From Berberis thunbergii (Eukaryota; Streptophyta; Magnoliopsida; Ranunculales; Berberidaceae), in contig QNQO01005810.1 of the NCBI GenBank assembly GCA_003290165.1, positions 269,852 through 333,851 of the forward strand: a DNA stretch of 64,000 bases. Direction: 5' to 3'. This document shows, piece after piece, positions 924 to 60,199 of the stretch. A model generated the notes under the pieces. The model saw nothing but the letters and a program-made list of their open reading frames with translations. It was not told the DNA's origin and did no database searches. The position numbers and the translations under genes were made by a program. Position 1 is the stretch's first letter, and each line of letters starts with the position of its first letter.

Positions 924-3900
924 ATGGCTGAGACGAAGTCAGTAGTTGTATCTGATCTGATTCCTGTGATGTCTAAAATTACGGACCATAAGCTAAATGG
1001 TTCGAATTATCACGACTGGAGTAAGACTGTTCGTCTTTATTTACGAAGTATTGACAAAGATGACCATTTGACTAATGATCCTCCTGAGGATTCGCGGCAA
1101 ACCTGGCTTAGGGAAGATGCTCGCTTGTTCCTTCAGATTCGGAATTCTATTGATAGTGAGGTAATTGGCTTGATCAATCACTGTGAATTTGTTAAAGAAC
1201 TAATGGATTATTTGGAATTTTTGTACTCTGGGAAAGGGAATCTCTCTCGCATGTATGAGGTTTGCCAAGCATTCTATCGTGTGGAAAAACAAGATCAGTC
1301 CCTTATCAACTACTTTATGGCATTCAAGAAAACGTATGAGGAGCTTAATATGTTGTTGCCATTTAGCCCTGATGTGAAGGTTCAGCAACGCCAACGGGAG
1401 CAAATGGCTGTCATGAGCTTTCTCGCAGGGCTTTCTCCTGAATTTGATTCTGCTAAGGCCCAAATTCTTTCTGGGTCTGATATTTCCTCTTTACAAGATG
1501 TCTTTAGTCGTGTTCTCCGCACCGAGAGTACTCCCACTGTTCCGCTTAGTGGTGCTTTGATAAGTCGAAATAACAACTCTGCACCTGGGAGACCGTCTAA
1601 TCACAGTGGACACAAAGGAGGCAGCTCACACGGGGTTGATACTCGCATGCAGGATTCTGAAAGTATTATTTGCAACTATTGTAAGAAGCCGGGCCATACC
1701 AAGTTTGACTGTCGAAAGCTACAGTTTAAAAATCGGCAAAAACACTCAGCTCATGTTGCGATCACTAATGATGCCTCTGACAAATCAGTCCTTATCTCTG
1801 CTGATGAATTTGCCAAGTTCTCCAAGTATCAGGAATCACTCAAGTCTTCCTCTCCGTCTGTCACTGCTATTGCCGATTCAGGTAAACCCGATGTTTGTCT
1901 TCTTTCATCATCCTCCAAATGGGTCATTGATTCTGGTGCCACAGATCATATGACAGGTAATTCTAGTATATTTTCTTCTTTTCAATCCAATGCTTTTACT
2001 TCTACCGTCACTTTAGCCGATGGGTCACCATCTTGTGTTCGCGGGTCTGGCACCATCAATCCTACCCCCTCGCTATCTCTGTCCTCTGTCTTACATTTAC
2101 CTAATTTATCCTTTAATTTGCTCTCTGTAAGCCAGCTTACTCGTCATCTTAACTGTTGTGTCTCATTTTACCCTGATCATTGTTTATTTCAGGATCTTAT
2201 GACGAAGAAGATTATTGGTAAAGGACATGAGTCTGGAGGCCTCTACATTCTTGATACATCGGTTCCGAGTTCTATTGCTTGCTCCAGTGTCGCGTCTCCT
2301 TTCGAGGCTCATTGTAGGTTGGGTCATCCGTCTCTCCCTCTACTCAAAAAGCTTTGTCCTCAATATAATAAGGTGTCTTCATTAAATTGTGAGTCCTGTC
2401 AGTTTGCCAAACATCATCGTCTTAGTTCGAGTCCTCGAGTCAATAAACGTGCTAGTGTTCCTTTTGAATTAGTTCATTCTGATGTTTGGGGTCCTTGTCC
2501 TATTTTGTCTAAAACTGGATTTCGGTATTTTGTTACATTTGTGGATGATTATTCTCGAGTTACTTGGTTATATTTGATGAAAAAACGATCTGAGTTGTTT
2601 TCTCTGTTTTGTGCGTTTTGTGCTGAAGTTAAAACTCAATTTAATGTTTCCATTCGAACCTTGCGAAGTGATAACGCTAAAGAATATACACAAGCTTTAT
2701 TTCAGTCTTATATGACTCAGAATGGCATCCTTCATGAAACTTCGTGTGTTGATACACCATCCCAAAATGGTGTGGCAGAACGTAAAAACAGACATCTTCT
2801 TGAAACAGCACGAGCTCTCTTATTTCAAATGCATGTTCCTAAACCTTTTTGGGCCGATGCAGTGTCTACAGCATGTTTTCTCATTAATCGCATGCCATCC
2901 TCTGTTCTTCATGGTGAGATACCTTACAAAATCCTTTTTCCTGATAAGTCATTGTTTCCTGTTGACCCGAAGAAATTTGGTAGCACTTGTTTTGTTCGGG
3001 ATGTTCGTCCACATGTCACTAAACTAGATCCCAAGTCTTTGAAATGTGTTTTCCTCGGTTATTCTCGTCTTCAGAAAGGTTATCGGTGTTATTGTCCCCA
3101 TCTTAACAAATATCTGGTCTCCATTGATGTTACCTTCCTGGAAGACTCACCTTATTTTCCGTCTTCGCCCATTCCCACTCGCCAGGGGGAGGATGATGAT
3201 TTGTTGGTCTATTCTATCACATCCTCAGCACCTGTCTCCGCACCAGCTCCAGTCAAGCATCCTATTATTCAGGTTTACTCCAGGCGTCAACCTCTTGATT
3301 CTTGTCCTGCACCTGCTCCTTCGTCATCGGATCCAGTCCCGCGCGATGATCTTCCTATTGCATTACGCAAAGGTAAACGCCAGTGTGCTTATCCTATTTC
3401 TTCTTTTGTTTCTTATAATAATTTGTCGTCTTCCTCTTGTTCTTTTATTGCTTCCCTTGATTCTACCTCTATTCCTAAAACTGTTCGTGAAGCCATTTCT
3501 CATCCTGGTTGGCATAATGCAATGATAGAGGAGATGAATGCTTTAGATGACAATGGTACTTGGGACTTGGTCGATTTACCCTCAGGAAAAAGGGCTATAG
3601 GTTGCAAATGGGTCTTCGCAGTTAAGGTCAATCCGGATGGGTCAGTTGCCCGATTGAAAGCACGTCTTGTCGCTAAGGGCTATGCTCAAACCTATGGGGT
3701 GGATTACTCTGACACTTTCTCTCCTGTTGCAAAGTTGACCTCTGTTCGGTTATTTATTTCCATGGCGGCTTCCCATAATTGGCCTTTACATCAGCTTGAT
3801 ATCAAGAATGCTTTTCTTCATGGCGATCTTCAGGAGGAGGTGTATATGGCGCAACCTCCTGGTTTTGTTGCTCAGGGGGAGTCAGGGCGAGTTTGTCGTC

Positions 3901-5006
3901 TTCGAAAATCTTTATATGGTTTGAAACAGAGTCCTCGTGCTTGGTTTGGAAAGTTTAGTCAGGCTGTTGAGAAATTTGGTATGATGAAAAGCAAGTCTGA
4001 CCATTCTGTATTCTACAAACGATCAGCAGCTGGTATCATTCTGTTAGTTGTGTATGTGGATGACATTGTCATTACTGGGAATGATACTAGAGGAATCTCA
4101 TCTCTTAAATCTTTCCTTCATACTCAGTTTCACACGAAGGATTTGGGGGTGTTAAAGTATTTCTTAGGAGTTGAGGTCACTCGGAGTAAACGAGGTATCT
4201 TTCTATCTCAGAGAAAGTATGTTCTTGACTTATTAACTGAGACAGGAAAATTGGGAGCAAAGCCTTGTAGTGCTCCAATGACTCCAAATGTGCAACTTAC
4301 CGATGTTGGGGAACCATTTGCAGATCCTGAAAGATATCGTAGGTTGGTTGGGAAGTTGAATTACCTTACTGTGACTCGTCCAGATATTGCATACTCAGTC
4401 AGTGTTGTCAGTCAGTTTCTGTCATCTCCGACAATTCATCATTGGGCAGCGTTAAAGCAAATTTTGGGTTACTTGAAAGGAGCACCAGGACGAGGTATCG
4501 TGTATGAAAATCACGGGCACACTCATATTGAATGTTTCTCAGATGCTGATTGGGCAGGTTCCAAAATGGATAGAAGATCCACTTCAGGTTATTGTATCTT
4601 TGTTGGTGGGAATTTGGTCTCATGGAAGAGTAAGAAGCAATCCGTTGTGTCACGATCCAGTGCAGAGTCTGAATATAGGGCTATGGCCCAGTCTGTGTGT
4701 GAGATAATGTGGATATATCAGCTCTTGACTGAAATAGGACTTAAAGCTACAATACCAGCGAAATTGTGGTGTGATAACCAAGCTGCTCTTCATATTGCTT
4801 CTAATCCTGTGTTTCATGAACGGACTAAGCACATTGAAATTGATTGTCATTTTATTCGTGAGAAAATTCAACAAGGCTTGATTTCTACTGGATATGTGAA
4901 AACTGGAGCACAACTTGGGGACATCTTCACGAAAGCCTTAAATGGGGTTCGGGTTGACTATCTTTGTAACAAGCTGGGCATGATCAACATTTATGCTCCA
5001 GCTTGA
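924..5006 (+). CDS. Copia gag-pol polyprotein, 1360 aa
   Basis: This is the complete polyprotein of the retrotransposon, with no stop or frameshift. A Gag region (about residues 1-230) leads to a CCHC zinc knuckle, CNYCKKPGHTKFDC, at 250-263. The aspartic protease has its active-site DSGA at 336-339. A GAG-pre-integrase segment (HCRLGHPS) precedes the integrase core with D520, D583 and E619, the expected D,D(35)E spacing. Reverse transcriptase carries YVDD at 1044-1047, and RNase H starts around DADWAG at 1207 and runs to the C-terminus. Every catalytic motif I looked for is present. The start used is the first ATG giving the whole Gag, and the stop overlaps the polypurine tract. Confidence 0.95.
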   Translation: MAETKSVVVSDLIPVMSKITDHKLNGSNYHDWSKTVRLYLRSIDKDDHLTNDPPEDSRQTWLREDARLFLQIRNSIDSEVIGLINHCEFVKELMDYLEFLYSGKGNLSRMYEVCQAFYRVEKQDQSLINYFMAFKKTYEELNMLLPFSPDVKVQQRQREQMAVMSFLAGLSPEFDSAKAQILSGSDISSLQDVFSRVLRTESTPTVPLSGALISRNNNSAPGRPSNHSGHKGGSSHGVDTRMQDSESIICNYCKKPGHTKFDCRKLQFKNRQKHSAHVAITNDASDKSVLISADEFAKFSKYQESLKSSSPSVTAIADSGKPDVCLLSSSSKWVIDSGATDHMTGNSSIFSSFQSNAFTSTVTLADGSPSCVRGSGTINPTPSLSLSSVLHLPNLSFNLLSVSQLTRHLNCCVSFYPDHCLFQDLMTKKIIGKGHESGGLYILDTSVPSSIACSSVASPFEAHCRLGHPSLPLLKKLCPQYNKVSSLNCESCQFAKHHRLSSSPRVNKRASVPFELVHSDVWGPCPILSKTGFRYFVTFVDDYSRVTWLYLMKKRSELFSLFCAFCAEVKTQFNVSIRTLRSDNAKEYTQALFQSYMTQNGILHETSCVDTPSQNGVAERKNRHLLETARALLFQMHVPKPFWADAVSTACFLINRMPSSVLHGEIPYKILFPDKSLFPVDPKKFGSTCFVRDVRPHVTKLDPKSLKCVFLGYSRLQKGYRCYCPHLNKYLVSIDVTFLEDSPYFPSSPIPTRQGEDDDLLVYSITSSAPVSAPAPVKHPIIQVYSRRQPLDSCPAPAPSSSDPVPRDDLPIALRKGKRQCAYPISSFVSYNNLSSSSCSFIASLDSTSIPKTVREAISHPGWHNAMIEEMNALDDNGTWDLVDLPSGKRAIGCKWVFAVKVNPDGSVARLKARLVAKGYAQTYGVDYSDTFSPVAKLTSVRLFISMAASHNWPLHQLDIKNAFLHGDLQEEVYMAQPPGFVAQGESGRVCRLRKSLYGLKQSPRAWFGKFSQAVEKFGMMKSKSDHSVFYKRSAAGIILLVVYVDDIVITGNDTRGISSLKSFLHTQFHTKDLGVLKYFLGVEVTRSKRGIFLSQRKYVLDLLTETGKLGAKPCSAPMTPNVQLTDVGEPFADPERYRRLVGKLNYLTVTRPDIAYSVSVVSQFLSSPTIHHWAALKQILGYLKGAPGRGIVYENHGHTHIECFSDADWAGSKMDRRSTSGYCIFVGGNLVSWKSKKQSVVSRSSAESEYRAMAQSVCEIMWIYQLLTEIGLKATIPAKLWCDNQAALHIASNPVFHERTKHIEIDCHFIREKIQQGLISTGYVKTGAQLGDIFTKALNGVRVDYLCNKLGMINIYAPA

Positions 5007-14700: not shown

Positions 14701-17700
14701 TTCATTTTATACAAACTGAAAGACTACCTGATTGACTAACTGATTCTTGAATTTTTCTGGATGCAGCTTGCGCTCAGAATGAAATGCATATGATACTTGA
14801 GCATCCATTCCTGTTGAAAAAAATGCATAGTAAGATTTCCATAAGGTGCTTCCATGTAAAACATTATCATTTATCTCTTCCATTTTACATGCTATAATTT
14901 TTTCCGAAGAAATTATCTATTTAAATTCTTTGAAAAAATAATGTGAACGATTATCTTTGAAATGTTTAAAAGTTCTGTGCACCACAATATCCGTGAATAG
15001 TTTATGCGATGAAACGGGTAAATATCCTGGTCCGATAAATATATATTGCACATGTAAACATGTTTACATATTTACGTGAATCATGAGTGTAGATTATTAT
15101 AATGATGCTGCTAAATGAAGCTTAATAAAAAAAATAGCCTTGCTTCAGGTGCAGTGGCATACTTAATTTTCATTTTACGTTGAATTATTTAGGTCTAAAC
15201 TAGCAGAGAAGATGAAGGATAACACGGGACTAGACGAATCGAGATGAAAAGAAGAGTTAGGCCTGAGTGGCTGACAGTAGGTTCAACCTCCCACATCCTA
15301 TAATTAGATTGTATGCAATAGTTAGTAAAAAATGAAATCAGAATAATCCATCAATCCCTTCTACAGCAGTTGTGATAAAAACGTTGCATCAATGTGGTTA
15401 TGTTTTGCCAAGTAGAATTTAACAATAGCATGCCTATGCAGTTATGCCATTGAGTTAGCCAGGGTGAACAATGAGCATAAATAAAAGATAAATTCATCTT
15501 CGGTTGAAATTCAAAAATAACATTAGAAATTGTTTGGTTAGGTGAAAATTAAGTTGTCTCCAGGTGTGATTAAACGGAAAGCATCTTAGTGAGAATCGTG
15601 TAGCTACACCACAATACATATACATAATATTACTAATCAAGTAATTATTTGACAAGAGCGATTCTTACCCATGCTGAAGTAGTTCCAAAATCCACCCCGA
15701 AATGTGTGGCAACCTTCCTGAGAAGCAGTCAAGACGAATTGGGCGAATTAGCAAATAGTGCAACACTGTAATAGGTGGAGCTGGACTATTCATACTATGC
15801 TTGTCAAATTGTTTAACTCAATTGAAGGCCTGAAGGTCGAAAAGAAAAGGTCTTGGGCAACATAGTTATATCAAAATCATGTCAATGGGGCGAATTAGCA
15901 AATAGTGCAACACTGTAATAGGTGGAGCTGGACTATTCATACTATGCTTGTCAAATTGTTTAACTCAATTGAAGGCCTGAAGGTCGAAAAGAAAAGGTCT
16001 TGGGCAACATAGTTATATCAAAATCATGTCAATGGGTGCAGTTCTTGTCCACATATTCATGAACAAATTAAAAGGGCACATGTGATTTTTACAATGAAAG
16101 AAAGATAAGTTGAGAATGAAAGTCCATAGATAGGAAGTGATTGGTATTTAGCAACTTTCTGTATGTCGTAGTCTTAGACATTGAACTATACTTTGGGTGT
16201 CTAAGATCAGTCATTTTCTTTTGGAATGAATGGATGGATGGATGATGAAAACATGTGATGTGTCAATGAAAATGTTTTTTGAACTTCCTTGCTTGAATAA
16301 TTCTTATTTATGACGCTTATATGCTTTTATACTTATATATGGATCAAGTAATATGATAGCCCCATAGAAAGAGCAGGGATTCACATCAACGTGCAGAAGC
16401 TCGATTCTATATTCTCTTTCTTGTTCTGGTTGAAACAGAAATTCATGTCAATAGTTCTGATATGATCGCTGAATGTTAAAACAGATTTGATGTTCATATA
16501 AATACATGAATCTGCGAAACTTATAAATGAACAATGGTTTTACTAGGGAAATATCATAAAGAAGATTGATGTACAAGTGAAAGAAATGCAATCAAACTTA
16601 GCAACTATATATTTACATTGATGTCCAGAAACTCAATTGTTTCACTTGTGAAGAAAGTATAATATATACTTCATAGATAGTGGAAATAACTGTGTCACAT
16701 ACCATGTGTTGAGTGTCAGTGTGGGAGACACGATGAAACGCATGCAAAGAATGAGGCAACTCGAGAGGTGCAATGGGATCACATGCTTCTCCTTTGGGGA
16801 TTCTCATTCTCATGAGAATATGCCAGCTGGAGTAGATGGGACAAGAAGTGGTCAAAGAGTTGTTTTTATGCATACAAGAACATTAATAACATGTTAAACA
16901 CAATTGAGTTTTCCATACCAAACTAAAATTGGTATCTTATTCACAGATGTGTTTCAACACATTAATATCCAATACAACAACTTCATGCCAATAGATATCT
17001 CTGAACATTTGAAAATTGTGCTGAACAAAAACATAAACAAGCTCATACTCTGAACCTTTATGTCATGTAAATCAAACTATACAAGAGCAGATGCCCATAG
17101 ATCAGTTGTCACTTTGCTCAGATGATAGTACCATGCTAATGACAACCTTACCTCAAGGATGACAGAAGCGTGAGAAGTCAGATATAAAGTAATAAAAAAA
17201 TGAACTTCCATAAGTTTTATATGGTGATAATTTTGCGAAGTTGGGAAATTCGCCTTGCAAGGTAGCATCCAGTTAATCAAAATTCTAAATGAAAATTTGA
17301 AATCTATTGTTTTTAGCTTCTCTCAAAAGAAAACAGTAGTCCAAATCATGTAACTATCATCTCATAAAAATCAATGATTTTATTTTATTCTAGAACTATC
17401 AAATTAACAGTTCCTTGTTACATACTTTTTAGATAAAACACAATCATCTGCAGGGTAATTTCTTTCAGGAACTATTCATTGTCTAAGGGTGCATTCGGAT
17501 CAGTTCATAGTGACTACCCTGAGAAAGCTTCTACAGATTAAAGAGCACTGTTAATATTGTCATCTCGAGTTAACAAAACATGGAACTCTATGCGGGCTCC
17601 TGTATGATGAAGCATATTCTTTTCCTTTTGGCTCCAGTATCAATTTAAAAAGAAATGAGTATGTCATAGTAAAACAAAGATGGATGATGTGTAAATGCAT

Positions 17701-22799: not shown

Positions 22800-23915
22800 T
22801 GATGCGATCGATTTATACTCCTTGCCTTGACCTGCTGACCTGCACAATGAACGCACGTGAGCCACGAACCATCGTTGTGGTGGTCGATGACACTCTGATG
22901 CTAAAGTCAGATAGGGATCTGAGAAAGGCGTAATGTTGTAAACAAGGAATTTTTAGTGTACTTTAGCTTACCAACCGCATGTCTTATTTATAGTGACAGA
23001 GTCATGGTTTGATCAGACCATCGATGGCGTAGTTTAGGGAAGAAGATCTTCATGGAGATCCTTCTCTAATTAGGAGTTATGCTGTGAAAAGAGGTTTCAC
23101 TGTTAAACTTGTGTTCTTCTAGATATGCAGGAGATAGTTCATAATCAGAGTGTAGTCTATAGATAGAAGTTTCCATTTGTGACTTATACTCAGGTATTTG
23201 CTTCCAACTTAGAAGCAAAATGTTGTTATCTTGCCTGTCCAAAGTTGATCCCCGAGATACTTGCCTCAACAGGACTTACGAGTATTGAGGATAGCTATGA
23301 GGCGCATGGGCTTAGCAGGTTGTAATGATTTGAGTCCGTCTAGTAGATTGCATTGTGCGGGCTTGGAACCGCTTGGGCTAAGTCAATGTTAGGGCTGAAC
23401 AAAAAACCGATCATAGCGATTAAACCAACCGAACCGATCTAAACCGAACCGATTGGTTCGGTTTAAATTCGGTTCGAATCGGTTTCGGTTTAAAAAAATT
23501 CAAAACCGAAGTGGTCGGTTCGATTTTCGGTTTCTATGTGATTTTAACCGACCAAACTGAACCGACCGAATATATATACTAAATAATATATATTTTATAT
23601 ATAAATAATATAATATGTTTAAAATAATCGGTCAGTTCGGTTTTATTTCGGTTTTGGTTCGATTTTAGTCGGTTCGGTTTGGTTCGGTTACGGTTTGCAT
23701 AAATTAGAATCGGTTCAGTTTTGTTAATGGTCATTTCGGTTTGAAAATTTTAAAATCGACCTAAGTCGGTTTGGTTCATGGTTTAGGTGAAAAACCGAAT
23801 CGTCGGTTCGATTTTCAGCCCTAGTCAATGTTGGGCCGACGTTTGGGCCTGTTATGTCTCGAGATCATCGTGACATGTGTACGCGTAGAAGAGAGGACAT
23901 TTCGATGTATCATCA
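22800..23915 (-). repeat. 3' LTR of Tat element 1 (with nested hAT)
   Basis: It aligns with 41960-43832 from TGATG to CATCA. Without the hAT insertion it is about 675 bp. A purine-rich CTCAGAGGGAATAG on the minus strand directly precedes it (23916-23929), fitting a polypurine tract. The two LTRs differ at many sites, so the insertion is old compared with the chromovirus inside it. Confidence 0.85.
23390..23823. mobile_element. Non-autonomous hAT element (434 bp)
   Basis: Terminal inverted repeats are TAGGGCTGAA and TTCAGCCCTA, flanked by the 8-bp TSD GTCAATGT (23382-23389, 23824-23831). The interior is AT-rich in the middle with many CCGAACCGA/TCGGTTCGG subterminal repeats on both sides. No ORF is present. 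It is the same family as 27363-27821. Confidence 0.9.
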
Positions 23916-26129: not shown

Positions 26130-28212
26130 AGCTACTTTCGCTTATGGCTGAGTTGCTGTGATCCTTGACGAGCCATGGCATGACCGAATATATTTCTAGC
26201 AGTTGTCATCCGTGCAATGCAGGCTAGGCACTGAGGTGCTTCATAAGTTGTTGGGTTCCAGAGATCGTTGGTTGTTTGGCAAGTCGTCGTCATCAGGCGT
26301 AGGGGCGTTGATCGGGTTTTGATTGAATTTGGTGACCACGAACAATAAAGGAGTGGTGATCCCATGGCAAGCCGTCAGCATTAGTCGGAGTCAATCAAGC
26401 TTCCACCATCCAAATCATTTACACATGCACAATGCGAGCTACAGATTTGGGTGTTAATCAGAAGCCGCAGTTCATCAGTCATCACTAACTAGGCTTTTGT
26501 TTGATAGGTTTTGGCAGCCCTTGTCTGTAAAGAATAATGACCCCTTGGCGAGTCATAGTCATTAGCGTGAGAGCGCTGACTAAACTCCCACTTCCTCAGC
26601 CGTCGTCACCCGCACGCAGCGGACTAGGCGTTGGACACCAGAAGTCATCGTCATCAGTCGCGTACTGACTAAGCTTACCTGATAAGTTCGGCGATCATTG
26701 TTTGTAGAAGAGTAATGATCCCTTGGTGAGTCATCGTCATCAAGCGTAAGAGCACTGACTAGACTCCCACTTCCTCGGCCATCGTCATCTGCGTGCAACA
26801 GACTAGTATTGGGCACCAGAAGTCGTCATCAGTCACGAACTGACTAAGCTTACCTGGCAAGTTTGGCGATCATTGTCTGTAGAAGAGCAATGATTACTTG
26901 GCGAGTCATCGTCATCAGACGTGAGAATGCTGACTAGACTCCCACTTCCTCGGCCATCGTCATCCGCGCGCAGCGGACTAGGCGTTAGGCACTAGAAGTT
27001 GTCGTCATCAGTCGTGAAAGCATTGACTGGACTCCCACTTATTCGATCGTCGTCATCCGCTAGCAGCGGACTAGGCATTGGGCACCAAAAGTCATCATCA
27101 TCAGTCGTGAACTGACTGAGTGTACCTAGAAAGTTTGATGTTCATTGTCTGTAGAAGAGCAATGATCCCTTGGCGAGTCATCGTCATTAGGCATGAGAGT
27201 GCTGACTAGACTCCCACTTCCTCGGCCATCATCATCTGCGTGCAACGGACCGGGCATTGGGCACCATAATCTGTCATCATTAGTAGCGAACTAACTAAGC
27301 ATACCTGGCAAGTTTGGTGATCAATGAAGAGCAATGATCCATTGGCGAGTCATCGTCATCAGTAGGGCTGAACAAAAAACCGATCAAACCGACCGAACCG
27401 ATCAAAACCGAACCAATCGGTTCGGTTTAAATTCGGTTCGGATCGGTTTCGGTTTAAAAAAATGCAAAACCGAAGTGGTCGGTTCGATTTTCGGTTTCTA
27501 TGTGATTTAAACCGACCAAACCGAACCGAACCGAATATTTAAATATAATATATTATTTATATATAAAAATATAATATATTTTATTTATAAATAATATAAT
27601 ATGTTTAAATATTCGGTTCGGTTCGGTTTTATTTCGGTTTTGGTTCGATTTTAGTCGGTTCGGTTCGGTTACGGTTTGCATAAATTGGAATCGGTTCGGT
27701 TTCGGATCGGTTTTGTTAATGGTCGGTTCGGTTTCGGTTTGAAAATTTTAAAACCGATATAAGTCCGTTCGGTTCACGGTTTAGGTAAAAAACCGAACCG
27801 TCGGTTCGGTTTTCAGCCCTAGTCATCAGGCATGAGAGCGTTGATTAGACTCCCACTTCCTCAGCCGTCGTCATCCACATACATCAGACTAGGCGGTGAG
27901 CACCAGAAGTCGTTGTCATAAGTCGCGAACTGATTAAGCTTACCTGACAAGTTCGACAATCGTTGTCTGTAATGATCCATTGGCGAGTCATTGTCATTAG
28001 GCGTGAGAGTACTGATTAGACTCCCACTTCCTTAGCCGTCATCATCTGCGATCAACGGACTAGGCGTTAGGAACTAGAACCTGTCGTCATCAGTCGCAAA
28101 CTGACTAAGCTTACCTGACAAGTTCGGCGACCATTGTCTGTAGAAGAGCAATGATCCCTTGGCGAGTCATTGTCATCAGGTGTGAGAGCGCTGAATAGAC
28201 TCCCACTTCTTG
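26130..28212 (-). repeat. Tandem repeat array of Tat element 1 (~178-bp unit)
   Basis: The phrase ACTCCCACTTCCTC recurs at about 26584, 26763, 26938, 27031, 27210, 27849, 28020 and 28198. Spacing is mostly 171-179 bp, with one short unit of 93 bp and one interval enlarged by the hAT at 27363-27821. Each unit contains several GTCATCGTCATC motifs. A last partial unit resumes at 30248-30285 after an X element. Open frames inside are meaningless repeats. The 25800-26130 stretch is non-repetitive, without a gene. Confidence 0.9.
27363..27821. mobile_element. Non-autonomous hAT element (459 bp)
   Basis: It has the same ends as 23390-23823 (TAGGGCTGAAC, TTTTCAGCCCTA) and the same CCGAACCGA-rich interior. 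It is flanked by the 8-bp TSD GTCATCAG (27355-27362, 27822-27829), within the Tat tandem repeats. The two copies are similar throughout. Confidence 0.92.
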
Positions 28213-30289: not shown

Positions 30290-31070
30290 CCCTCGGATTT
30301 GGTCATAGAGGGGATGATTGGAGGTCGCATTGGTCGTAAAGGACAATAGTGAAAGTTTAGTAAAGCCAAATATTTTTACTGATAATATTTTTTGAGGTGT
30401 TCTATATTCCATGGTTGTTTAAGTTCGTCCCATTTATGTCTTCTAACCAGTATGTCCCCGGCTTGTTGACATTCGTCACCCTGTAAGGTCCTTCCTAGTT
30501 CGGGTTCAACTTTCCTGTGCCAACTTCTTTGGTGTTATGTTGGTTTTTTCTGAGTACCTAGTCTCCCACTCTGAATTCGCGTGGCTTTACCTTCTTGTTG
30601 TAGTATTGCACTATTTGTTGGTGGTAGGCAGCTATCTTGTTGGAGGCTAGATCCTGCTTTTATTCGAGGATGTCTAGTTTGATGCACAAGGCTTCATCGT
30701 TACCATTTGGTCTGAATTCTTCCATTCGGAAGGTTGGCACTTCGAGTTCTACCAGAACCATGGCTTCTGACCCGTATGCAGAGCGAAGGGTGTTTCTCCG
30801 GTAGGGATTCTTTTGGTTATCCTTTACGTTTAAAGTATTTCTGGTAGCGATGGAACGCATTCCTTTTGGATGCGTCAAACTTCCTTTTGATTGCCTCCAG
30901 GATTGTTCAGTTGGTAACCTCCTCTTGGTTGTTGGCTTGTGGGTGCACTGGGAGAAATGGTGATTGATGTTCAAATTTTTGCATAGTGTTTTAACCTTAA
31001 TACCTTCAAATTGAGTATGTTGTCTGACCAATACTCTGGGGATGCAAAATCTGTAGATGATGGTTGCTAA
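30290..31070 (-). pseudogene. Tat element 1 integrase, C-terminal remnant
   Basis: On the minus strand the segment contains AYGSEAMVLVELEVPTF, the conserved stretch after the integrase core of Tat-type Gypsy elements, with upstream pieces such as CKNLNINHHFS. The frame is broken and the catalytic region is unreadable. It is separated from the rest of integrase by the hAT element at 31071-32567. Confidence 0.75.
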
Positions 31071-32567
31071 TAGGGGTGGGCAAACGGGTCGAGGATTCGC
31101 GGGTTCAACTCGAACCAGACCGTTTTGCTCTAAACGGTCCGGATTTTAATTATGTGTTTTTAGATACGGTTCGGATCGGTCCGGGTCCGTTATAAAATGG
31201 TCCGGTCCCGATTCCTATTTTAAAAAAACAAACGGTCCGGGTTGGATCCGTTTCAAATCACAATTACAATTTCCCTTACAATTTACATTACATTACACTA
31301 AAGACTAAACCTAACATAAATAGGAAGTTAGGGATTTGGACGAAAGCCGAGTCTCCAACGCCATACACAATCGCAAGCTCAAGGAGCTTTCCTTACTCGA
31401 ATCCTCTTCACCTCTTTTCCAATATCCCATCAACAGCCATAGCCAACGAGCTCTTCAACTTCTTCGAGTCCAAACTCGGCAAAGGCTCAGTCTTTGCCTG
31501 CGACATCTTCACAGAGCGGAAGAATTGGAAGTCCAGAGGCTTCGACCGGGTTCAATTCGAGACAATCGAAGCCATAACCACTGTAAATCTCCTTTCTCAA
31601 CAAAGAAAACTCGTTTTCTAGAATTCCCATTTGTCAGTCTCACCCTCATTTGAAGATATCATCATCAGACCCATTCACCCCAAAAATCGGTTTAGTGAAG
31701 GAGGGGTTCTGCATGTTGGATTCTTAGTTGAGAGAGATTGCTTGAATGTCTTGGAGTCATGGAAGGTTTTCAAGGCTGAGATTATACCGGAGAGGAAAAG
31801 GGTTGATTTTTGGGTGGGTTATAGTGGGGAGAGTTATAGGTTGGAGATTGGATTTGGAAATGTTTTTTAGACTTTTGGGTGTTGTTTGGGTGGAAAGGAA
31901 TCAAATGCACTTCTTCTCAAAGTATTTTATTTGTGTGAAATTTACTACTTTTTTTCCTTTATGGGTTTTAATTTCAAATGCACTTCATTTGCTGCCTGCA
32001 ATTTTTAGTTGGTGTTTTATCATTTATGCAAATCTAGGGTTGTGGGTTTTGTGTGAATAGAATGTTTCTTGAACAATACCTGTCAAAGCTGTGATCTTGA
32101 TGCTAAAGTCATTATTGTCCATTGTTTGTGATTTTATTAGGTAAACATTTGTGATGTGTTGTAAATAAATAACATGTAAGCTGGTTCTGCTTGGTAGATA
32201 GAAAAATGATTCATTTTGTAGATTAACAAATTTGCATAGTTTCCATATGCATTAGTTTTGCATTGCATTACTTTATAGTTGCTTGTTAGTAATTAAAGAA
32301 ATCAATGCAAGGTTCGAGTATTTGGTTTATCTATATGTCTTATCCTATCTTCCTTGTTTCTAATGTTGCTACAAGCACAATTGATTATGTCAAAAGCTTC
32401 CTAGATTTGAAACCGTTTGGAACCGTAGGAACCAGACCGTTCCAAACGGTTCGAGTTAGGTTCGGTTCAAAATGAGGGGATCCGGACCGAACCAGATCTG
32501 TTAATTTTAAACTATTCGAGTTAGGTTCCTCCAAATTTGGAACCGATCAGGACCGTGCCCACCTCTA
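31071..32567. mobile_element. Gene-carrying hAT element (1.5 kb) with RDR2 fragment
   Basis: The ends are TAGGGGTGGGCAAACGG and CCGTGCCCACCTCTA. The flanking 8-mers GTTGCTAA (31063-31070) and GTTGCCCA (32568-32575) match at 6 of 8 bases, fitting an aged hAT TSD. Both subterminal regions hold repeats of AACGGTCCGG/TTCGGATCGG type. The element is inserted in the Tat integrase remnant. Its outer ~190 bp at each end are shared with 57469-59101, but the interior differs. Confidence 0.85.
31346..31935 (+). pseudogene. RDR2: RDR2-like RNA-dependent RNA polymerase fragment inside a hAT element
   Basis: One continuous frame reads SNIPSTAIANELFNFFESKL, then GSVFACDIFTERKNWKSRGF, then DIIIRPIHPKNRFSEG and ERKRVDFWVGYSGESYRLEI. 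This follows the N-terminal region of plant RDR2 in order and spacing, as recalled from Arabidopsis RDR2 (VPQTIVADELLRFLE, TTRDNWKPRDFARVQF, KRRVEFWVWESGDCYKIEV). RDR2 makes double-stranded RNA for 24-nt siRNAs. Only about 190 codons are present, with in-frame TAG at 31619-31621 and 31868-31870; similarity fades after about 31935. No polymerase active site is included, so no enzyme can be made. Confidence 0.72.
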
Positions 32568-32760
32568 GTTGCCCATGTAAATTTTTCTATCTGGACTTGC
32601 CCTATCTTGGATAGGAGCTCCGCTTCGACCCACTTGGTGAAGTAGTTGACTGCCATAAGAAGGAACTTTTTGTCGGCTGATGCTGGGAGCGGTCCAAAGA
32701 TGTCCATCCCCATTGTGTGAATGGCCACAGACTTATCATTGGTGTCGGTGGTTGGGCAGG
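32568..32760 (-). pseudogene. Tat element 1 integrase, core remnant
   Basis: Minus-strand residues MGMDIFGPLPASADKKFLLM and YFTKWVEAE match the start of the Gypsy integrase core. It is cut on one side by the hAT element and on the other by the chromovirus, whose TSD GCAGG is at 32756-32760 and 38383-38387. The upstream part continues at 38388. Confidence 0.8.
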
Positions 32761-33240
32761 TGTCATGAACTAGCAATCCATGCGGCACTAGCTATCCACT
32801 TCACTAGTAAGCCTATGAGTAGTTACTTTGACGAGCACAAATATTAACTTGAGAATGCACAATATCAATCTGTAGACAATATAACAATGCACAACAGTTA
32901 ACAAAAGCTTTCATTAACATTCAATAGATTATAATGGGGAGGAACGTTTGAAAGGACGTTGCTCAAGACTAGTTCGATGCTATCGATCGATGGAAATACA
33001 ATTTTGAAGTTGAAAAACAATGCAAAGAAAACAATAAAAATGCTAGCGGTACAATCTTGCCCGACTATGCAATGGAGGCAACACGTCCTCACAGTCAAGA
33101 GCTCAAACCTTCCCCCTATAATATAGATGCTAAGCATTTTGGGCACTTTTCAAAAGGGAACATTGAATTTTGAGACCATTAGGAAAGTCTTGAAAGGCCT
33201 CTGACGTTGATTTCCCTGACCAACGGTACTAGTCATGACA
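32761..33240 (-). repeat. 3' LTR of the chromovirus
   Basis: The sequence runs TGTCATGAAC to AGTCATGACA (480 bp) and aligns along its full length with 37904-38382. Confidence 0.93.
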
Positions 33241-33251
33241 TTGTCCCACAC

Positions 33252-36250
33252 TCAATTCGCTGACGCCCTCGCAACGAACTTTTCCAAGTACTCTTCCAGC
33301 TTTGAGAGGTACGACAACAGATGCTCGACTGGGTCCCAACTGATCTCTGAAGGAGGCTCATCCTGCCACTTGACCAAATACTCTCTATCCGAGCCTGTGT
33401 TGTTGATGAGGCGGTCAGCTAAGATTTCTTCCACTTCTCGATCTGGCTTAGTAGGATGCTTAGGCAATGCTCGGATAGATACATTTCTTGTGGGATCAGT
33501 AGCATCTGCATGGTAGGACTTCAAGTTACTTGCATGGAAGATATGATGGGTGAAACGGAGCCAATGTGGTAACTTGACGCGATATGAGACTTTGCCTACT
33601 TTCTCAATAATCTGTACCGGTCCCTCATACTTGTGAAACAGATTGTTGTGTGCTCTAGCTGTCCGTTTATACTTGTTGAACATATCTAGCTTCACCAATA
33701 CCAAGTCCCCAACTTCAAAAGGATCAATCCGTCGTTTCTTGTCGACCCATTTCTTCATGTGACGGGAGGCTTTATCAAGATAGGCTTGAGAACCTTCAAT
33801 ATTTTTCTGCCAGGCTTTGACAAATTCAAGAGCTCTTGGGCTGGGTCCTTGATATTCGGTAAGCACTGTATGTGGTGTCAATGGTTGCTGACCATTGACT
33901 AACTGAAAGGGGCTGGAGTGAGTAGCTGAGCTCTTTTGTAAGTTGAAACAGAATTGTACAACATCAAGTAGTCCCACCCAATTTTTCTGATTTGCACTTA
34001 CAAAATGACGAAGGTATTCTTCGAGCATAGAGTTAAAACGCTCAGTCTGTCCGTCAGATTGGGGATGTTGGCTTGTCGACATATTAAGTTTGGATCCCAA
34101 GAGCTTAAACAACTCCTTCCAGAACTTTCCTGTGAAGCGAGCATCACGGTCGTTAACAATGTTTTCGGACAGTCCCCAATACTTCACTACATGCTTGAGG
34201 AACAATTGCGCGGTATCTTCGGATGTGCAAGTCAGTCCGGTCGGCACAAAGGTAACATATTTTGAGAATCGGTCAACAACTACAAGGATACACTTGAAAT
34301 CCTCCACTTTCGGTAACCCAGCAATGAAGTCCATGTAAACACTTTCCCAAGGACGAGTTGGAACATGCAGGGGCTCTAGTAAGCCTACTGGTCAATCTCT
34401 TTCAACCTTATCTTGCTGGCAAATAAGACATGTTCAAACATAGGCCATTACATCCTCCTGTATCTGTGGCCAATAGTACCCCGTCTCTAGCAATGCAAGT
34501 GTTTGTCTCCAACCTGGATGTCCCGCCCAATGGGTGTCATGAAATTATCTCAAAAGTTCTTTCCTCAAACCAGAAGTTCTTGGAACATAGAGGTGATTAC
34601 CAGTTGTGAGTATTGCTCCATCTTTTATCCAGAACCGTCGAGTTTTGCCCTGCTTGATCAACTCTGTAATTGCCTTCGCTTGTGGGTCTGTCTGTAGGCC
34701 TGCTTTGATCTTCTCCAAGATGGTGTGACTCGGACTGGTATGGGTTAGCACTGCAAGGTTAGCTCTTCTACTGAGTGCATCAGCTACATTGTTAGTGCAC
34801 CATGGCTTGTATTCCAATACTAAGTCAAATTCTGCTAATTTTTCCCGCCATCGAGATTGCTTGGAGGTTAGCATCTTCTGATTAAGGAAATGGCTTGCTG
34901 CAGCATTTTCTGTTTTAACAAGAACTTGAGATCCCAAGAGGTAGTGTCTCCACACCCGTAAACAATGTACAATGGCTAGCAATTCCTTTTCATGAGCTGA
35001 GTAACGAGACTCTGTATCATTCAGCTTTCGACTCTCATATGCTACCGGGTGACCATCTTGAAGCAAAATTCCCCCTAAGGCATAATCAGATGCATCTGTT
35101 TGTACTTCAAAGGGCTTGGTGATGTCTGGCAAGTCCAATACTGGATCTTTCATCACGACTAGTTTCAAGTCTTGGAATGAAGCTTCACACTGCCTATCCC
35201 ATTCCCATGTTCGGTCTTGTTTCAACAAATTTGTCAATGCAACAATTCTCTTGGAGTAGTCCCTTATGAAGCGACGATAATAGTTTGCGAGTCCAAGGAA
35301 AGAACGTAGTTGAGACACGTTCTTAGGAGTGTTCCAATCATGGATTGCCTTGACTTTCTCCATGTCCATTCGAATCTTGCCATTGCCAATAACATGACCC
35401 AAGAAATTGATCTGGGTCTAGCCGAATGAGCACTTCTCCTTCTTGACAAAGAGATGATTATCCCTAAGGATTTGGAACACTTCTCGCAAATGATGTAGGT
35501 GTTCTTCTATAGTCCCACTATAAACCACAATATCGTCAAGATAGATAACCACGAACTTGTCCAGAAGGTGACGGAACATGCCATTCATTAAGGGTGCAAA
35601 ACGTAGCTGGAGCATTGATCAAGCCGAAGGGCATTACTAGGAACTCATATGACCCATATCTAGTAGAACAAGCAGTTTTGGATTCGTCACCAGCAACAAT
35701 GCGGACCTGATGGTAACCTGATCTCAAGTCAAGTTTTGTGAAGTATCTGGCAGATCCAAGTTGGTCGAATAAGTCTGCAATGAGCGATAACGGGTATTTG
35801 TTATTTATAGTGACTTTGTTCAAGGCTCTATAATCAACACAAAGGCGAAGACTGCCATCATGTTTCCGCTGAAAAAGAACAGGTGCCCCATAAGGTGCTT
35901 TAGAGGGTCGAATGAATCCCGACTCCAACAAGCCATCTAGTTGTTTTCTCAATTCGGTCAACTCTGGAGGGCTCATGCGATATGGACTACGTGCGGGTGG
36001 CTTGGCACCAGGCACTAACTCAATTTCGTGATTAATGAGCTTTCTGGGAGGTAGATTCTTTGGCAATTCATTCGACATCACTTCTCTAAAGTCAACAATA
36101 ACTTGGGCAACTTCCTAAGGGATTTTGCTAGTATCATCTTCCATCTCTAGCTTTGCCACATCTAAGTATGTATCTTCTCCTTTGGCTAAGCCTCTCTTGA
36201 CTTGGAGCACCGACAATATTCTATCATGAGTTGTGGGTCGAATTGATGTT
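33252..36250 (-). pseudogene. Chromovirus pol (RT, RNase H, integrase, chromodomain-like tail), broken
   Basis: On the minus strand, RT shows [29 protein letters not shown] and YLDDIVVYS, with a frameshift near 35600 between the APATFC and YLDD blocks. RNase H shows [10 protein letters not shown] and LADALSRR-like NVADALSRR. Integrase (34334-33252) has DFIAGLP, NDRDARFTGKFW and SDGQTERFNSMLEEY, so D, D and E are all kept. The C-terminus, REVEEILADRLINN then EYLVKWQDEP, is chromodomain-like. Stops lie near 36116, 35416, 34546, 34437 and 34393. Confidence 0.9.
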
Positions 36251-36330
36251 GGTACAATGCGTAGTCTGGGTCCGAAAAAGGCCAAGGAGTCCATGAAAGG
36301 TAGTAGTCCTGTTGCAGCTTCTCGGAAGAA

Positions 36331-37638
36331 TTATTGGCCAAGAATCACCTTAAAATCATCAAGTGGGATGACCAAGAAGTTTGATCTTCCTTCCCATGGA
36401 CCAACTCTAGCCATACCATTAATAGAGATTGCCTCAGAATTGACAGCTTTCAACTTACCCACATCTCCTTCTAAGTTCAGTCCCACACGTCTAGCTTCAT
36501 CTGGGGCAATAAAATTGTATGTCGCCCCTGAATCCAACAATGCTTGGGAAGGGAACCCATTGATAGTGATGTCGAGGTATTGCAAAGCCTTCTTGTGTGG
36601 GTGCTCATACATTTCTCCTTTGACAGCATTGAGCTTGCGTAAAGCTCCCATCTGGGAGGTCTCACTGTTGGTGGGGTTTGAGCTCGATGCGGTCGAGTTA
36701 GAAGGTTCTGTTTGAAGCAAGGACATCAATGAATGTAGGGCTGGTTTGGATGGACATTTGCCTGTTGGGTGATCCCTACTATTGCAAAGAATGCATGGGG
36801 CAGGTGTAGATGGTCTCCACTGCCCAGAGTAGTTTTTCCCTCCTTCGTTGTTGTAATTTGAGTTGCTAGGGCTAGCATTCCAATCTCTGTTGGAACTCCA
36901 ATTCTGGTTCGACGGCTGAGAATTGTAGTTTCCTCGGTTCTGACTTGAGTTCCCCCAGTTTTGGTGAGGTGATCGAGCATTCGACCCTGAGCTTGAATTG
37001 GTACTGCCAGTTCTAGCTGTGGAGTGATTGAGCGAAGTGGATCCAGCCATGGGCATATAATCGCTAAACCTTTCTGCTGCTGCAATAGCACTTGTAATAT
37101 CTGTCACCTTCTGCCTTTGCAATTCTGCTTGCAGAAATGGCTGAGCTTGTCCCATGAAACAAAAAACTTTGTCCTTTTCAGACATGTCTCGAATATCTAG
37201 CAAGCAAGTTGAGAACTGCCTGACATAGTCTCGAATATTGCCTGTCTGTTTGATGGTATGGAGCTTCCTCCTTGCTAAGAAATCAGTGTTCTCAGGCAAG
37301 AATTGATTTCTGAGTTCCTTCTTGAGGTCTGCCCAAGTTCTAATAAGGATGCGACCTTCTTCCATATCTGCATATTTGGTTCTCCACCATAGTTTCGCAT
37401 CATCTGCTAAGTACATGGTCGCCATGGTGACCTTCGCTTCTTCTGATTCGGGGTTCACCGCCCGAAAATACTGCTCCAGATCAAACAAGAAGTTCTCTAG
37501 CTCCTTCCCATCTCGTACCCCAGCATATGACTTTGGCTCAAGCACTTTCATCCTAGGGTGATCAGTCGTCCCTGTGGCCTTGGTCAGCAAGCCAACCATT
37601 GCAAATATGTCCTCCAGCTGTAATTGGAAGTCACTCAT
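36331..37638 (-). pseudogene. Chromovirus gag and protease
   Basis: A 436-codon frame encodes Gag (WWRTKYADMEE, LRNQFLPENTDFLARRKLH) and a zinc knuckle with CILCNSRDHPTGKC. The protease follows with LLDSGATYNFIA. It stops at TAA 36333-36331, where the frame should run on into pol (next residues FFREAATGLLPF), so the polyprotein is interrupted by a nonsense change. Confidence 0.9.
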
Positions 37639-37903
37639 CACTTGAGTTGTGGATGATGCGACTCTTCCATAGCGATTGTCCGTCCTTCTAAATTATCGAC
37701 GTGTTCAGCCAGCGAATCCACTCTGTCTGCCAAGTGAAAGAGTCCATCAAGCCGACTGATCTGTTCTCCCAAACTGCTCAATTGGTCCATTCTGTTTTCT
37801 AGTCTCTGCATTCGACTAGCCTATCGTTCCTCCATAGCGCTAACGCGCTCGTTAGTTCCTGCATCCTGGTTTGCATTCAACAAGCTCTGGCTCTGATACC
37901 AAC

Positions 37904-51479: not shown

Positions 51480-52790
51480 CAGCCAGAAGAAGCATGCACC
51501 GTAAACCAAGGTGTTAATTGGATGACTCCAATCCTGGCGTACATTTTAAATGGAGAACTCCCAACAAACAAGATGGAAGCCAAGAAATTTCGGAACCGGG
51601 CATCCAGATATACAATGATAAATGACAAATTATACAGAAGGTCTGCCACGAACCCATTGTTGAGATGCCTTACACCAAGAGATGTCTAATATGTCCTAGA
51701 GGAAATCACAACCACACATGCGGGAATCACCTGGGGGAAAGAACATTGGCCCATAAAGCTCTAACATTAGGCTATTGCTGGCCAACGATGCAGGAAAACT
51801 CTCAAAAACTAGTTCATAGATTTGAAAAGTGCCAAAGATTCGCCCCATACACTCACACGTCAAGACAAAATCTGACTCCAATGAGCAGCCCATGGCTGTT
51901 CGCACAATGGGGAACAAACATTGTAGGACCACTCCAAGCGTCTGACAAAAAAAAAATTTCTCCTCGTAGCACTATATTACTTTACCAAATGGGTTGAAGT
52001 AGAACCTCTTACAAAAATAGGGGAAGTGAAAGTCGAGAAATTTCTCTGGAGATACATCATTTGCAGACTCAAAATCCTAAGAGTAATCGTTACGGACAAT
52101 GGGAAGCAGTTTGAAAGCAAAAGGGTCAGGGAGTTATGCAAAAGCATGAATATCCAACACTTCTCTGCACCAGCTCACCCGCAAGCAAACGGGCAAGCCA
52201 AAGTCACTAGCAACAATTTTGGAGGCAATCAAAAGAAGACTCGAGGCAGTGAAAAGATTGTGGACATCCGAATTACCTGGTGTCCTTTGGGCATACAGGA
52301 CAACAAAGCAAATTCCAACAGGAGAAACACCTTTCGTACTTGCTTACGGGTTAGAAGCGATGATTCTCGTGGAGGTAGGGATGCCAACATTTTGAACCGA
52401 AGAATTTCGCGCCGAGGACAATGTCGAAGCATTAAGAGTCAGGCTAGATCTCCTCAAAGAAAAATGAGAAGCATCCTCGATTAAAACAACAACATACTGA
52501 CAGCGCATGGCAGTGTACTATAATAAGAAGGTACTGATCTGAAACATCAACGTTGGAGATTGTGTTATGAAAGGTTCAACTAAACATAAAAGAGCCAGAC
52601 GCTGGCAAACTTAACCCAAATTGGGAATGACCCTATCGAGTGACAAAAATCAACAGACCAGGAACATACTGGTTGGAAGACAAAGAGGGCGAAACGATAC
52701 CTCAACTATGGAATTTAGAGAACTTGAAAAGATATTATCAATAGTCCGTCGCTTTCAATTTCGAAACAAACTAATACGATCAGGACAAAA
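51480..52790 (+). pseudogene. Tat element 2 integrase
   Basis: The zinc-binding part shows CGNHLGERTLAHKALTLGYC and FEKCQRFAPYTH. The core shows FAQWGTNIVGPL and RVIVTDNGKQFES, then HPQANGQAKVT. The catalytic Glu expected in GQAEVT is Lys. Later pieces (52540-52740) match the usual C-terminal region (GDCVM, LEDKEGETIPQLWNLENLKR-type). Frameshifts split the gene. Confidence 0.8.
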
Positions 52791-56338: not shown

Positions 56339-57468
56339 CAAACCAAAATCCCAAAAGTGTTAATACTATTTGATCTCCTTACTTTTCTGATCAATAAGTT
56401 TAACATCAAATTCCTACATTGCTATGTAATAATTACACTTTATGTTCACAGAAATATTTCATGTCAGATGCACTATTTCACTAGCACACAACTCAATACC
56501 ATGCTTCGGTAGTCGTAGTAAAGAATAAGTAACAAAACAAAACTAAGGGGATCGTTCTGACGAAGATTAGAAGGCTCGTTAACTAACACTAAGGGTAACT
56601 TAAAGACAACTAACAAACTAAATAAGAAAATAGTGGGGATTGGTTTTTCTAATGTCAAGTAAAAAATTACTAAGAAGATTATTGTAAGACTAATAAAACT
56701 TAAAGGAAGTAGATGACGAAAAAATTAGCTATGGGTTCTATCTCTACACACCAAACATATGCTCATGAACTAAAATCCATAATTCCTTAACTAACTCGTG
56801 AATGACAATGCTCAAAAGATTAACCTTGACCGCACTACATTAACCTTATTATTTCCCCAAATTCGTTGAATCAAACTATTAATTTTCATGTTATCTAATC
56901 AGGAATCACAAGTTAGATAGACAATCCAAGATCATAATATAAGAAATATGAATACTGACTAGGCAATTACAAGTATGAACAACATCTTGTTCTTAACCTA
57001 GGTTTTTACTAAATCTTACCAACATTCTTTGGTATTTACTACTTGTGAATATATGATTATAACTATTAGATGAAATTCTCTTATGCTCTAGCACTAGATC
57101 CAAACATGCTTACTAAGTTTGCCCACCTTAACAACATACAAAGATAAGTTCTCTATAAAGCAGTTAAACAAAACACATTCACTAATTAGCAAAGAATGGT
57201 TGAATCTAATTAATCCATAAACATATGTTTGGGGCTTCAAATTCTCCCCTAGCTAAAAAGAGGTTTAACTAGAATAGTAATCATGTTTGAACATCAACCC
57301 ATAAATCAATGTCAAACTAAAAATAAGAGAGCGTAACCGAAAATAGAGCACTATCGCTTGTGGTGCTGGTGAATGGAAGTGTGGTGCGCATAACGTTAAT
57401 AAGAGAATTAAATCTCTTTTTCTTCACGATCTGAACTTCGATCTGCTTCTGCTCTTACTGGCTGTGAC

Positions 57469-59101
57469 TAGGGGTGGGCAAACGGTTCGAGGATCTGCGG
57501 GTTCAACTCGAACTGGACTGTTTTGCTCTAAACGGTCTGAATTTTAATTATGAGTTTTATATACGGTTCGGATCGATCCGAGTCCGATATAAGACGGTCC
57601 GATCCCGATTCCTATTTTTAAAAAAGAAACGGTTCGGGTTGGACCTGTTTCAAAAAAAAAAGACTATTTACTCTTCCAAGCCAAAGTAACCTAACTAAGT
57701 GTAAGACTCTTTAGTCTTTAGAGGAGAAAAACTCTTCTCTTTATCAACATCCATCCCTTTCGCAGGCCGCCTCCCCCTTTAGTTAGAAGAGAGGTGAGCA
57801 GTGAGCACCCGCAGGCCGCCTCCCCTTCTCACATCCTCCGCTAATGGCTGCTAAAGAAGGTAAGAGATCATTCAAGAAAGAAGAATCGATCATTACCAGA
57901 CAGACCGAGTTGCAAACTAAGAAAAATCATTCAAGGTTAGATCTCTTCCTCATCCTCTAATTACAATTTTGAACTTTGATCCATCCATCCAACATGTTTG
58001 TGTCTAGGTTATATTTTTATTCGATTAATTCATTATTTGGGTTGGTTGGGTTTTCATTTAATTTTAATTTTAATTTTAATTGGTATTTGGTCTTTCACTT
58101 TCAAAGAGAAAAAAGAAGGGCGAATCAATCGACGAACGACGAAGATGTCATGTCTGAGGATGTGCGATACCGAGGGAAGGGAGATGGTTTGAACAAAGAT
58201 ACCTACTACGGCGATGAAAAAGAAAAAAGTTGGTTGAGGAGGGAGAAGCTTTCATCTTCATGGAAGAGACGATTAGAGCTAACACTTGTTATTCTTTACG
58301 CCCTTTCTTTCTACTCATTATAATCCCTCGATCTATTCAACTCTCTAACGGTACCTACTCCCCACTAAGCTACCCTTATTTCATTTTTTTTTTCACTTTC
58401 TAACTCCCTCTCCCTCTCTCTTTAGTTAACAAAGATAAATTACGCCTGGATATATGGGCCCTGGATGGATGGGAAAAGATACCCTCAATGTAAGTATACA
58501 AATTTATTTTCTTTCTTTCTTTTTCGTATTTTGCACTTCAAATTGCTTCAACTCTCAATTTCCTTCTTTATTAGTTAAGGTTTTGTTTCTTGATTATGGT
58601 TTTCAGCTTATTGAGTGGATGTCAGTGCAAATAGCAATGCCATACTAGTACATTCTTCATAATTCATCATCATCTATTTTTCCCTAGAAATGATTAGTTC
58701 ATTCCAACATGAGATATGGTTTGTTCGTTCTGATTATAAACTATAACACTAGCATCTCCCCAAAACGTAGGTCGTAATCAGATGAGATTATATACATTCT
58801 GTAATTTGCAGCAACACGGTGTTAGGTCATTTCCTTTTCTTAGTTTTCCTTGGAATTAGAAGCATAAAATCTCAACCATTACTTTATTTGGGGAGATATT
58901 TGGTTATATACTTTCTTTAAAGAAGATCCCCTCATTTTGAACATTGGAACCGTAGGAACCAGATCGTTCCAAACGGTTCGAGTTAGGTTCGGTTCCAATG
59001 TTCAAAATGAGGGATCCGAACCGGACCGGATCCGTTATTTTTAAACGGTTCGAGTTAGGTTCCTCCAAATTTGGAACCGATCCGGACCGTGCCCACCCCT
59101 A
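57469..59101. mobile_element. Gene-carrying hAT element (1.63 kb), TSD GCTGTGAC
   Basis: The ends TAGGGGTGGGCAAACGG and CCGTGCCCACCCCTA are bounded by perfect 8-bp copies of GCTGTGAC at 57461-57468 and 59102-59109. Both ends are close to those of 31071-32567. The interior is different and holds spliced-gene-like sequence. Confidence 0.95.
57844..58323 (+). CDS. Candidate two-exon ORF carried in the hAT element (102 aa)
   Basis: Exon 1 (57844-57935) starts MAAKEGKRSFKKEESIIT and ends AG/GTTAGA. Exon 2 (58107-58323) starts after TTTCAAAG, stays in frame and ends at TAA with a hydrophobic C-terminus LELTLVILYALSFYSL. One base shifted, the following bases read IIPRSIQLSN before GT, resembling the N-terminal IIRRSLQLSH stretch I recall from plant MBOAT (GUP1-like) acyltransferases. 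A later piece near 58443-58490 (GPGWMGKDTLN before GTAAGT) fits the same idea. It is most likely a captured gene fragment; any product is unproven. Confidence 0.35.
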
Positions 59102-60199
59102 GCTGTGACTGAAGAAGAATGTTGTGAGAAGAGGGTCAGGTGATCAGAGATAGTGACAGTGATTGTGAAGTGTCTGAATGCTGCGAGGGAGAAGGATCTG
59201 ATGGTGACGAAGAAAAAGAGAGATGGCGAGACTGAGGTGTGTCTGTTTGTTATGAGAGAAGGATGGCGAGGAAAAATAAGATCTGATAGCAAGGTGCTAT
59301 CCGATGGAAGAAGGTGATGGCTGCAAAGAGGATGACTGTGAAGGGCAGTTGTGAGAAGGCAGGTGTTGGCTATGATTGGAGAAAGAAAGATGGAGCAGGT
59401 GATAAAGTGTTGGTTTGGTGAAGGAGAGGTCTGATGGTGGTGATGGATGATGGCGATGGCGAAAAAGATGGATGGACTATGAAGTATTGAACTCGAGCAG
59501 GGGTGGTGATCTCTCGAGAGCCAGGTATTTTCCCTTTGTAGATGTTTTCTCAGGTTTACCTATTTGTGCAGTTTCCTTTTGCTAGAACTCTTATTTAAAA
59601 TTTTTATTTTTTGGGAAAGCAAGCTGGGTTTTAAGGACCCCAAACCTTTATACAAAAGTAAAAAACAAAAATAAAAAAAGAAACAAACTCTCATAGGAAA
59701 GAAAATTCTAGTGAGAGTGAACATGGTTACTAGGCTTATAGAAATCTTCAACTGGCATCGGCCAAAAAAAGAAAAAGGGCAGAGACTAAAATCTTTAGTG
59801 CAAGATTTTGAAAAGAAATTGCTTGCAACCTCTTCACTAGAAGGATCTTGCTCATGTTCCTCGTTACTACGCTGCTCATCTGTTGTGGTGTTTTCTTTGT
59901 CCTGAAGTCGGTGTGTGTTCACTTGCATCCACATTAGCACTACGCTCAAGCATTGGTTGATAAGAATCAATGGTTGTGGACTTGGCGTTATGGCATCACT
60001 CTGGTTATCATTTATGTTATGCTCTGCCACATTGGCAGCCTCTATACTGGTCACATTCCCTACTTTTCCTATGGTAGGCCCTGGACTCCCCTCTAAACTG
60101 GGTGGAGTCTTTGACTTGAATGTATGTCTACCCTTGGCGATCGTCCAACCATCAAAGTTTGTCTTTCTAGTGGTAGGGTCCTACCCGTAGCTTGCCATA

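Follow-up and report, generated by a model that had tools for sequence, protein, structure and literature searches.

An RDR2 exon fragment within a non-autonomous hAT-like element of Berberis thunbergii

Gene-carrying hAT elements in plants

Plant DNA transposons are well known to capture genes, and the mechanism considered here is not new. The matched passages of PMC8903248 count hAT members with 8-bp TSDs among the Pack-TYPE elements and report local maize hAT pairs, of which 12 of 15 share their orientation and are no more than 100 kb apart. The gene-bearing Ds elements of maize, as portrayed in the matched text of PMC3260210, are likewise non-autonomous hAT elements with captured exons and intron sequence, read there as captures of genomic DNA; the same text calls gene capture a rare feature in hAT transposons. 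For grapevine, the passages of PMC2528002 describe Hatvine-6 as a hAT family with shared ends and a variable interior that matches genic introns and exons, and its members share transposase coding sequence.

Here we analyze a 64-kb stretch of DNA (the window) that contains an element of this general type, designated element 1. It is a Pack-TYPE-like hAT, a kind already known, and the account given in the first-pass annotation was right in kind. Like the Pack-hAT elements in the portion of PMC8903248 available to us, element 1 is non-autonomous, has TIRs and an 8-bp TSD, holds coding DNA of a host gene, and has a nearby relative in the same orientation (element 2). In contrast to them, the captured gene is RDR2, known here from the captured fragment. 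The donors also differ from those in the maize Ds passages of PMC3260210 (e.g., the ILR1-like3 gene and ZmMybst1), whose loci are located there. The comparison with Hatvine-6 breaks down at the transposase: a Pfam scan of the longer reading frames, seven in element 1 and 12 in element 2, found no transposase domain.

The product of RDR2 helps plants to silence transposons. The unusual point is therefore the cargo, a core gene of the transposon-silencing pathway. Among the matches listed from the open-access literature, none describes a transposon that has captured RDR2. In the passages at hand, PMC2773423, a maize paper that covers both RDR2 and gene fragments, brings up RDR2 in connection with small-RNA libraries of mop1 and in a reference, but not as a captured gene.

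Ends, insertion site, and a second family member

Element 1 and its immediate surroundings comprise the following features:

31071–32567: element 1, hAT-like, non-autonomous, 1,497 bp
31071–31082, plus strand: left TIR TAGGGGTGGGCA, located by pattern scan, 11/12 match to the opposite end
32556–32567, minus strand: right TIR TAGAGGTGGGCA, located by pattern scan
31063–31070: left TSD GTTGCTAA, 6/8 match with 32568–32575
32568–32575: right TSD GTTGCCCA, 6/8 match with the left copy
30663–31070, minus strand: host site, downstream portion of a degenerate gypsy-type integrase frame (joined frame)
32576–32791, minus strand: host site, upstream portion of the same degenerate integrase frame (joined frame)

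When up to one mismatch is allowed, TAGRGGTGGGCA occurs at four sites in the 64-kb window, all without mismatch, where 0.37 are expected; none of 100 shuffled windows reaches four sites. The four sites are both ends of element 1 and both ends of element 2. A chance origin of the hAT-like ends is rejected on this count, and together with the 11/12 TIR match it bears out the 1.5-kb element with hAT-type ends proposed in the first-pass annotation. Two random 8-mers would agree at least as well as the TSD copies of element 1 with a probability of about 0.004 (binomial, calculated by hand). The TAGGGG- ends resemble known plant hAT ends, and it is the TSD length and these ends that suggest membership in the hAT superfamily. 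A literature search with the TIR letters returned a single, unrelated paper.

Joining the flanks of element 1 after removal of one TSD copy restores a single frame on the minus strand, with no interruption at the join. The joined frame aligns to an in-window control frame at 51927–52481 with 42% identity over 134 aa (E 8e-26), and none of the nine gaps in the alignment falls at the join, which corresponds to residue 75 of the translated frame. The control frame itself is a Pfam integrase core (rve) scoring 35.2 bits against a cutoff of 32.6. Taken separately, the two flank frames match no Pfam family at E values up to 1, so the host site is recognized only via this control. The 6/8 match agrees with the earlier description of the 8-bp TSD as aged. 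Taken together, the TIRs, the TSD, and the joined integrase frame provide good support for the boundaries of element 1 and for the 8-bp duplication.

A degenerate gypsy-type element also occupies 33255–37692 on the minus strand. Pfam detects a Tf2-1 SH3 domain, a chromodomain, and a sub-cutoff integrase core in its frame at 33252–34391, and a reverse transcriptase at 35536–36114.

The second member of the family, about 25 kb away and overlooked in the first-pass annotation, shares its ends with element 1:

57469–59101, plus strand: element 2, same hAT-like family, 1,633 bp, 8/8 TSD GCTGTGAC, interior unrelated to element 1
57461–57468 and 59102–59109: TSD copies of element 2, GCTGTGAC, 8/8 match
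31071–31281, plus strand: left end common to both elements, 85.4% identity over 212 columns to 57469–57679
32417–32567, plus strand: right end common to both elements, 88.1% identity over 159 columns to 58944–59101

The TIRs of element 2 match at all 12 positions over 12 bp. The common sequence covers the first 211 bp of each element; at the other end it takes in 151 bp of element 1 and 158 bp of element 2. The interiors yield no mutual match better than E 0.18. That of element 2 gives sub-threshold matches or none in Pfam, and a short exon-like stretch within it has no match among solved structures. The combination of shared ends and different cargo indicates a cargo-swapping, Pack-TYPE-like hAT family. 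With the same orientation and a spacing within 100 kb, the two elements are arranged as in the maize pairs of the PMC8903248 passages.

The RDR2 exon, its edges, and its decay

Between the shared ends, the interior of element 1 divides into three parts:

31282–31414: interior before the exon, 133 bp, no ATG, not recognizably RDR2
31415–31921, plus strand: captured RDR2 N-terminal exon, 507 bp, 169 codons, stops at 31619 and 31868, ending in NALLLK codons
31922–32416, plus strand: intron-like sequence, starting with a GT donor, no exon-2 similarity found

The fragment contains two in-frame stops, as previously described, no frameshift, and a one-codon insertion compared to aligned relatives. 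We compared the two open pieces of its frame separately with the sequences of solved structures. Both halves match best to 7eu0_M, a chain named RNA-dependent RNA polymerase 2, the Arabidopsis protein; its residues 14–81 align with the first half (E 1e-14) and residues 85–163 with the second (E 3.3e-10). A second chain, 7w84, named RNA-dependent RNA polymerase, follows with E values of 2.5e-8 and 2.6e-4 for the first and second halves, respectively. The next structures matched by the first half after the RDR chains are the RRMs of hnRNP A1, at E 0.007. The alignments to the RDR2 structures 7eu0_M and 7roz_A preserve the order and frame of the two residue ranges. Unlike RDR2 in these structures, element 1 has the N-terminal exon only, interrupted by the two stops and lacking a polymerase core.

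A search of 5.8 billion proteins identified eight relatives at E ≤ 0.001 among 19 candidates. They are 45–63% identical to the fragment in the alignment, and up to 64% by local alignment; two of them, P0004 and P0005, bear the name RNA-dependent RNA polymerase. Searching again with the alignment yielded 30 relatives among 2,094 candidates, including P0020 from Henckelia pumila, named RNA-dependent RNA polymerase 2-like. A profile built from seven of the eight first-round relatives (P0007 omitted) recovers the fragment from the six frames of the window at E 5.5e-76, and an overlapping chunk again at 8.2e-9. Its best match elsewhere in those frames is at E 0.89, leaving no other piece of RDR2 exon 1 and a single RDR2-bearing element copy within the 64-kb window. 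In Pfam, the second half alone matches PF24823 (PH_RDR2) at E 3.4e-4 with 21 bits, below the 27-bit cutoff, and the first half matches no RDR2 family; all eight first-round relatives carry PF26250, and seven of them also PF24823. P0030, a relative that bears the RdRP catalytic core, matches element 1 only through its exon-1 part (E 3.6e-19), and the rest of it at E values of at least 1.1, so the core is absent from element 1. Since only the exon-1 part is present, element 1 holds a fragment of RDR2 and not an RDR2 gene.

The structure matches, the relatives, and the profile uphold the RDR2 assignment of the first-pass annotation, and as far as it could be tested the best matches belong to RDR2 and not to another family. 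The order and frame of the RDR2 codons stand as first described, while their number falls from about 190 to 169. The sequence from 31330 to ~31400 is not recognizably RDR2, and one relative aligns weakly from ~31400, upstream of 31415.

We counted exon edges and conserved columns in 27 of the 30 relatives, dropping P0007, P0028, and P0030 as partial or fused. In 20 of the 27, the reading frame starts 9–13 codons upstream of the point equivalent to 31415; no ATG is found in the 133 bp that precede the exon in element 1. At the other edge, element 1 reads CTC AAA, then GTATTTT. A valine, always encoded by a GT codon, directly follows the LLK-type motif in 23 of the 27 relatives and also in the fragment. 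Where these relatives continue past the valine, their sequences differ among themselves, as expected for read-through into an intron. The exceptions are P0008 (A), P0019 (G), P0020 (E), and P0017, which reads on past the edge into LKFAPKIYQ: LKFAPKIYQKISGP. Searching element 1 with exon 2 of P0017 gives an E value of 0.47 at best. That the match ends at a GT donor and has no start codon points to genomic DNA, not mRNA, as what was most likely captured, and the sequence after the exon would then be, at least in its first part, RDR2 intron.

Decay of the fragment is present but modest. Of the single-base changes possible in its sense codons, 4.8% create a stop. Two stops would then correspond to ~42 changes over the 507 bp, a hand estimate of close to 8% with broad limits of ~1–30%. 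The fragment differs from its relatives at 3/37, 3/32, and 0/13 columns conserved in at least 90%, at least 95%, and 100% of them, respectively; relatives reach 7/37, 7/35, and 4/17 at the same levels. At the ≥90% level, P0014 is altered at 7/37 and P0029 at 4/38 columns, against 3/37 in the fragment, a value that suggests ~4% divergence by hand. In a protein tree, for which P0007 was restored, the fragment has a branch of 0.36, twice the median of 0.17 but exceeded by those of three relatives, and groups with P0007 and Ensete ventricosum with support of 91/90. Some relatives are altered at least as much as the fragment, so the counts do not establish strong decay, and with decay so modest a late effect of the fragment is possible.

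Probable origin of the fragment and its possible link to silencing

We consider it very probable that a non-autonomous Pack-TYPE hAT captured a genomic piece of RDR2, inserted into an old gypsy element, and then decayed, most likely without making a protein. A hAT transposase supplied in trans would recognize the ends and move element 1. The element would have taken up plant RDR2 genomic DNA, comprising nearly the whole first coding exon without its start codon and, most likely, the beginning of intron 1, before moving into the gypsy retrotransposon, where the two stops and the worn TSD would reflect later decay. We assume that the cargo derives from the host's own RDR2; nothing found speaks for or against a horizontal origin of the piece. 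The capture route may have involved tandem insertion and re-mobilization across neighbors, as proposed in passages of PMC8903248 and PMC13317346, or replication errors in repair after excision, the alternative given in the matched text of PMC3260210. The same-family, same-orientation pair 25 kb apart merely fits the re-mobilization route.

Other origins of the RDR2 sequence carry little weight. Capture of a processed, mRNA-derived copy is very unlikely: no point in its favor was found, and an mRNA copy would run into exon 2, which the P0017 search does not recover, unless cut exactly at the GT donor where 23 of the 27 relatives turn to valine. We rejected a processed origin on the position of this edge and the absence of exon 2. 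A local RDR2 gene or pseudogene flanked by hAT-like ends that arose by chance has next to no probability. Nothing was found to favor it, and it would have to accommodate ends beyond chance together with a TSD, an integrase frame that is open across the joined flanks, a second element with the same ends, and six frames of the window without another exon-1 piece. With integrase on both sides and no further exon-1 piece in the window, this candidate was also discarded; as far as the window allows a test, no full-length RDR2 spans the locus, and the joined flanks are integrase. A domesticated fragment that still makes a short RDR2-like protein, such as a decoy of the N-terminal domain, would be in keeping with the few altered columns and the intact frame, but the in-frame stops and the upstream stretch without a start codon make it extremely improbable.

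The captured exon could instead act through RNA, giving rise to siRNAs that match and dampen the parental RDR2, so that the transposon family gains from weaker silencing. We regard this as unlikely. In its favor, from 37.5% down to 10.4% of the 24-nt windows would remain perfect matches at 4–9% divergence, given random substitution and a divergence estimated by hand, which makes siRNA cross-talk possible on sequence grounds. Moreover, the matched text of PMC13317346, citing Muyle et al. 2021, presents captured fragments in maize as siRNA reservoirs that affect donor genes; passages of PMC11986588 report raised donor-gene methylation for Helitron captures in Brassica napus; and those of PMC2773423 propose that gene fragments in transposable elements may contribute siRNAs and regulate the genes they came from. 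The general form of the idea is thus already in print, at least in the part of PMC2773423 concerned. Against it, donor genes in B. napus have a lower siRNA abundance than free genes (PMC11986588, same passages), and the window holds one copy, whose TSD is worn and whose exon carries two stops. The stronger statement, that a hAT family with RDR2 exon 1 feeds siRNAs matching the parental gene and so modulates its own silencing enzyme, is more doubtful still. By contrast with both, we favor capture followed by decay, with the RDR2 fragment now most likely an inert, pseudogenized passenger.

If siRNA cross-talk between captured pieces and their donors is general, RDR2 would be a donor that feeds back on the pathway itself, and such feedback, if true, would amount to a self-referential epigenetic conflict. 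The capture of RDR2 offers a good natural test of whether pieces of this kind affect the genome's own defenses.

The window contains several other repetitive features. An open copia polyprotein frame of 1,362 codons spans 918–5003; its best named relative, from Xanthoceras sorbifolium, reaches 88%. Long tandem repeats with ~93–272-bp units and 77–82% matches form blocks in 26521–28209, and a 147-bp unit at 15737–16036 is present as an apparently recent tandem duplicate with a 99% match. Two short arrays of a AGTTCGGTTTT-like unit lie at 23634–23674 and 27621–27660; at a guess, these could be subterminal repeats belonging to another transposon family.
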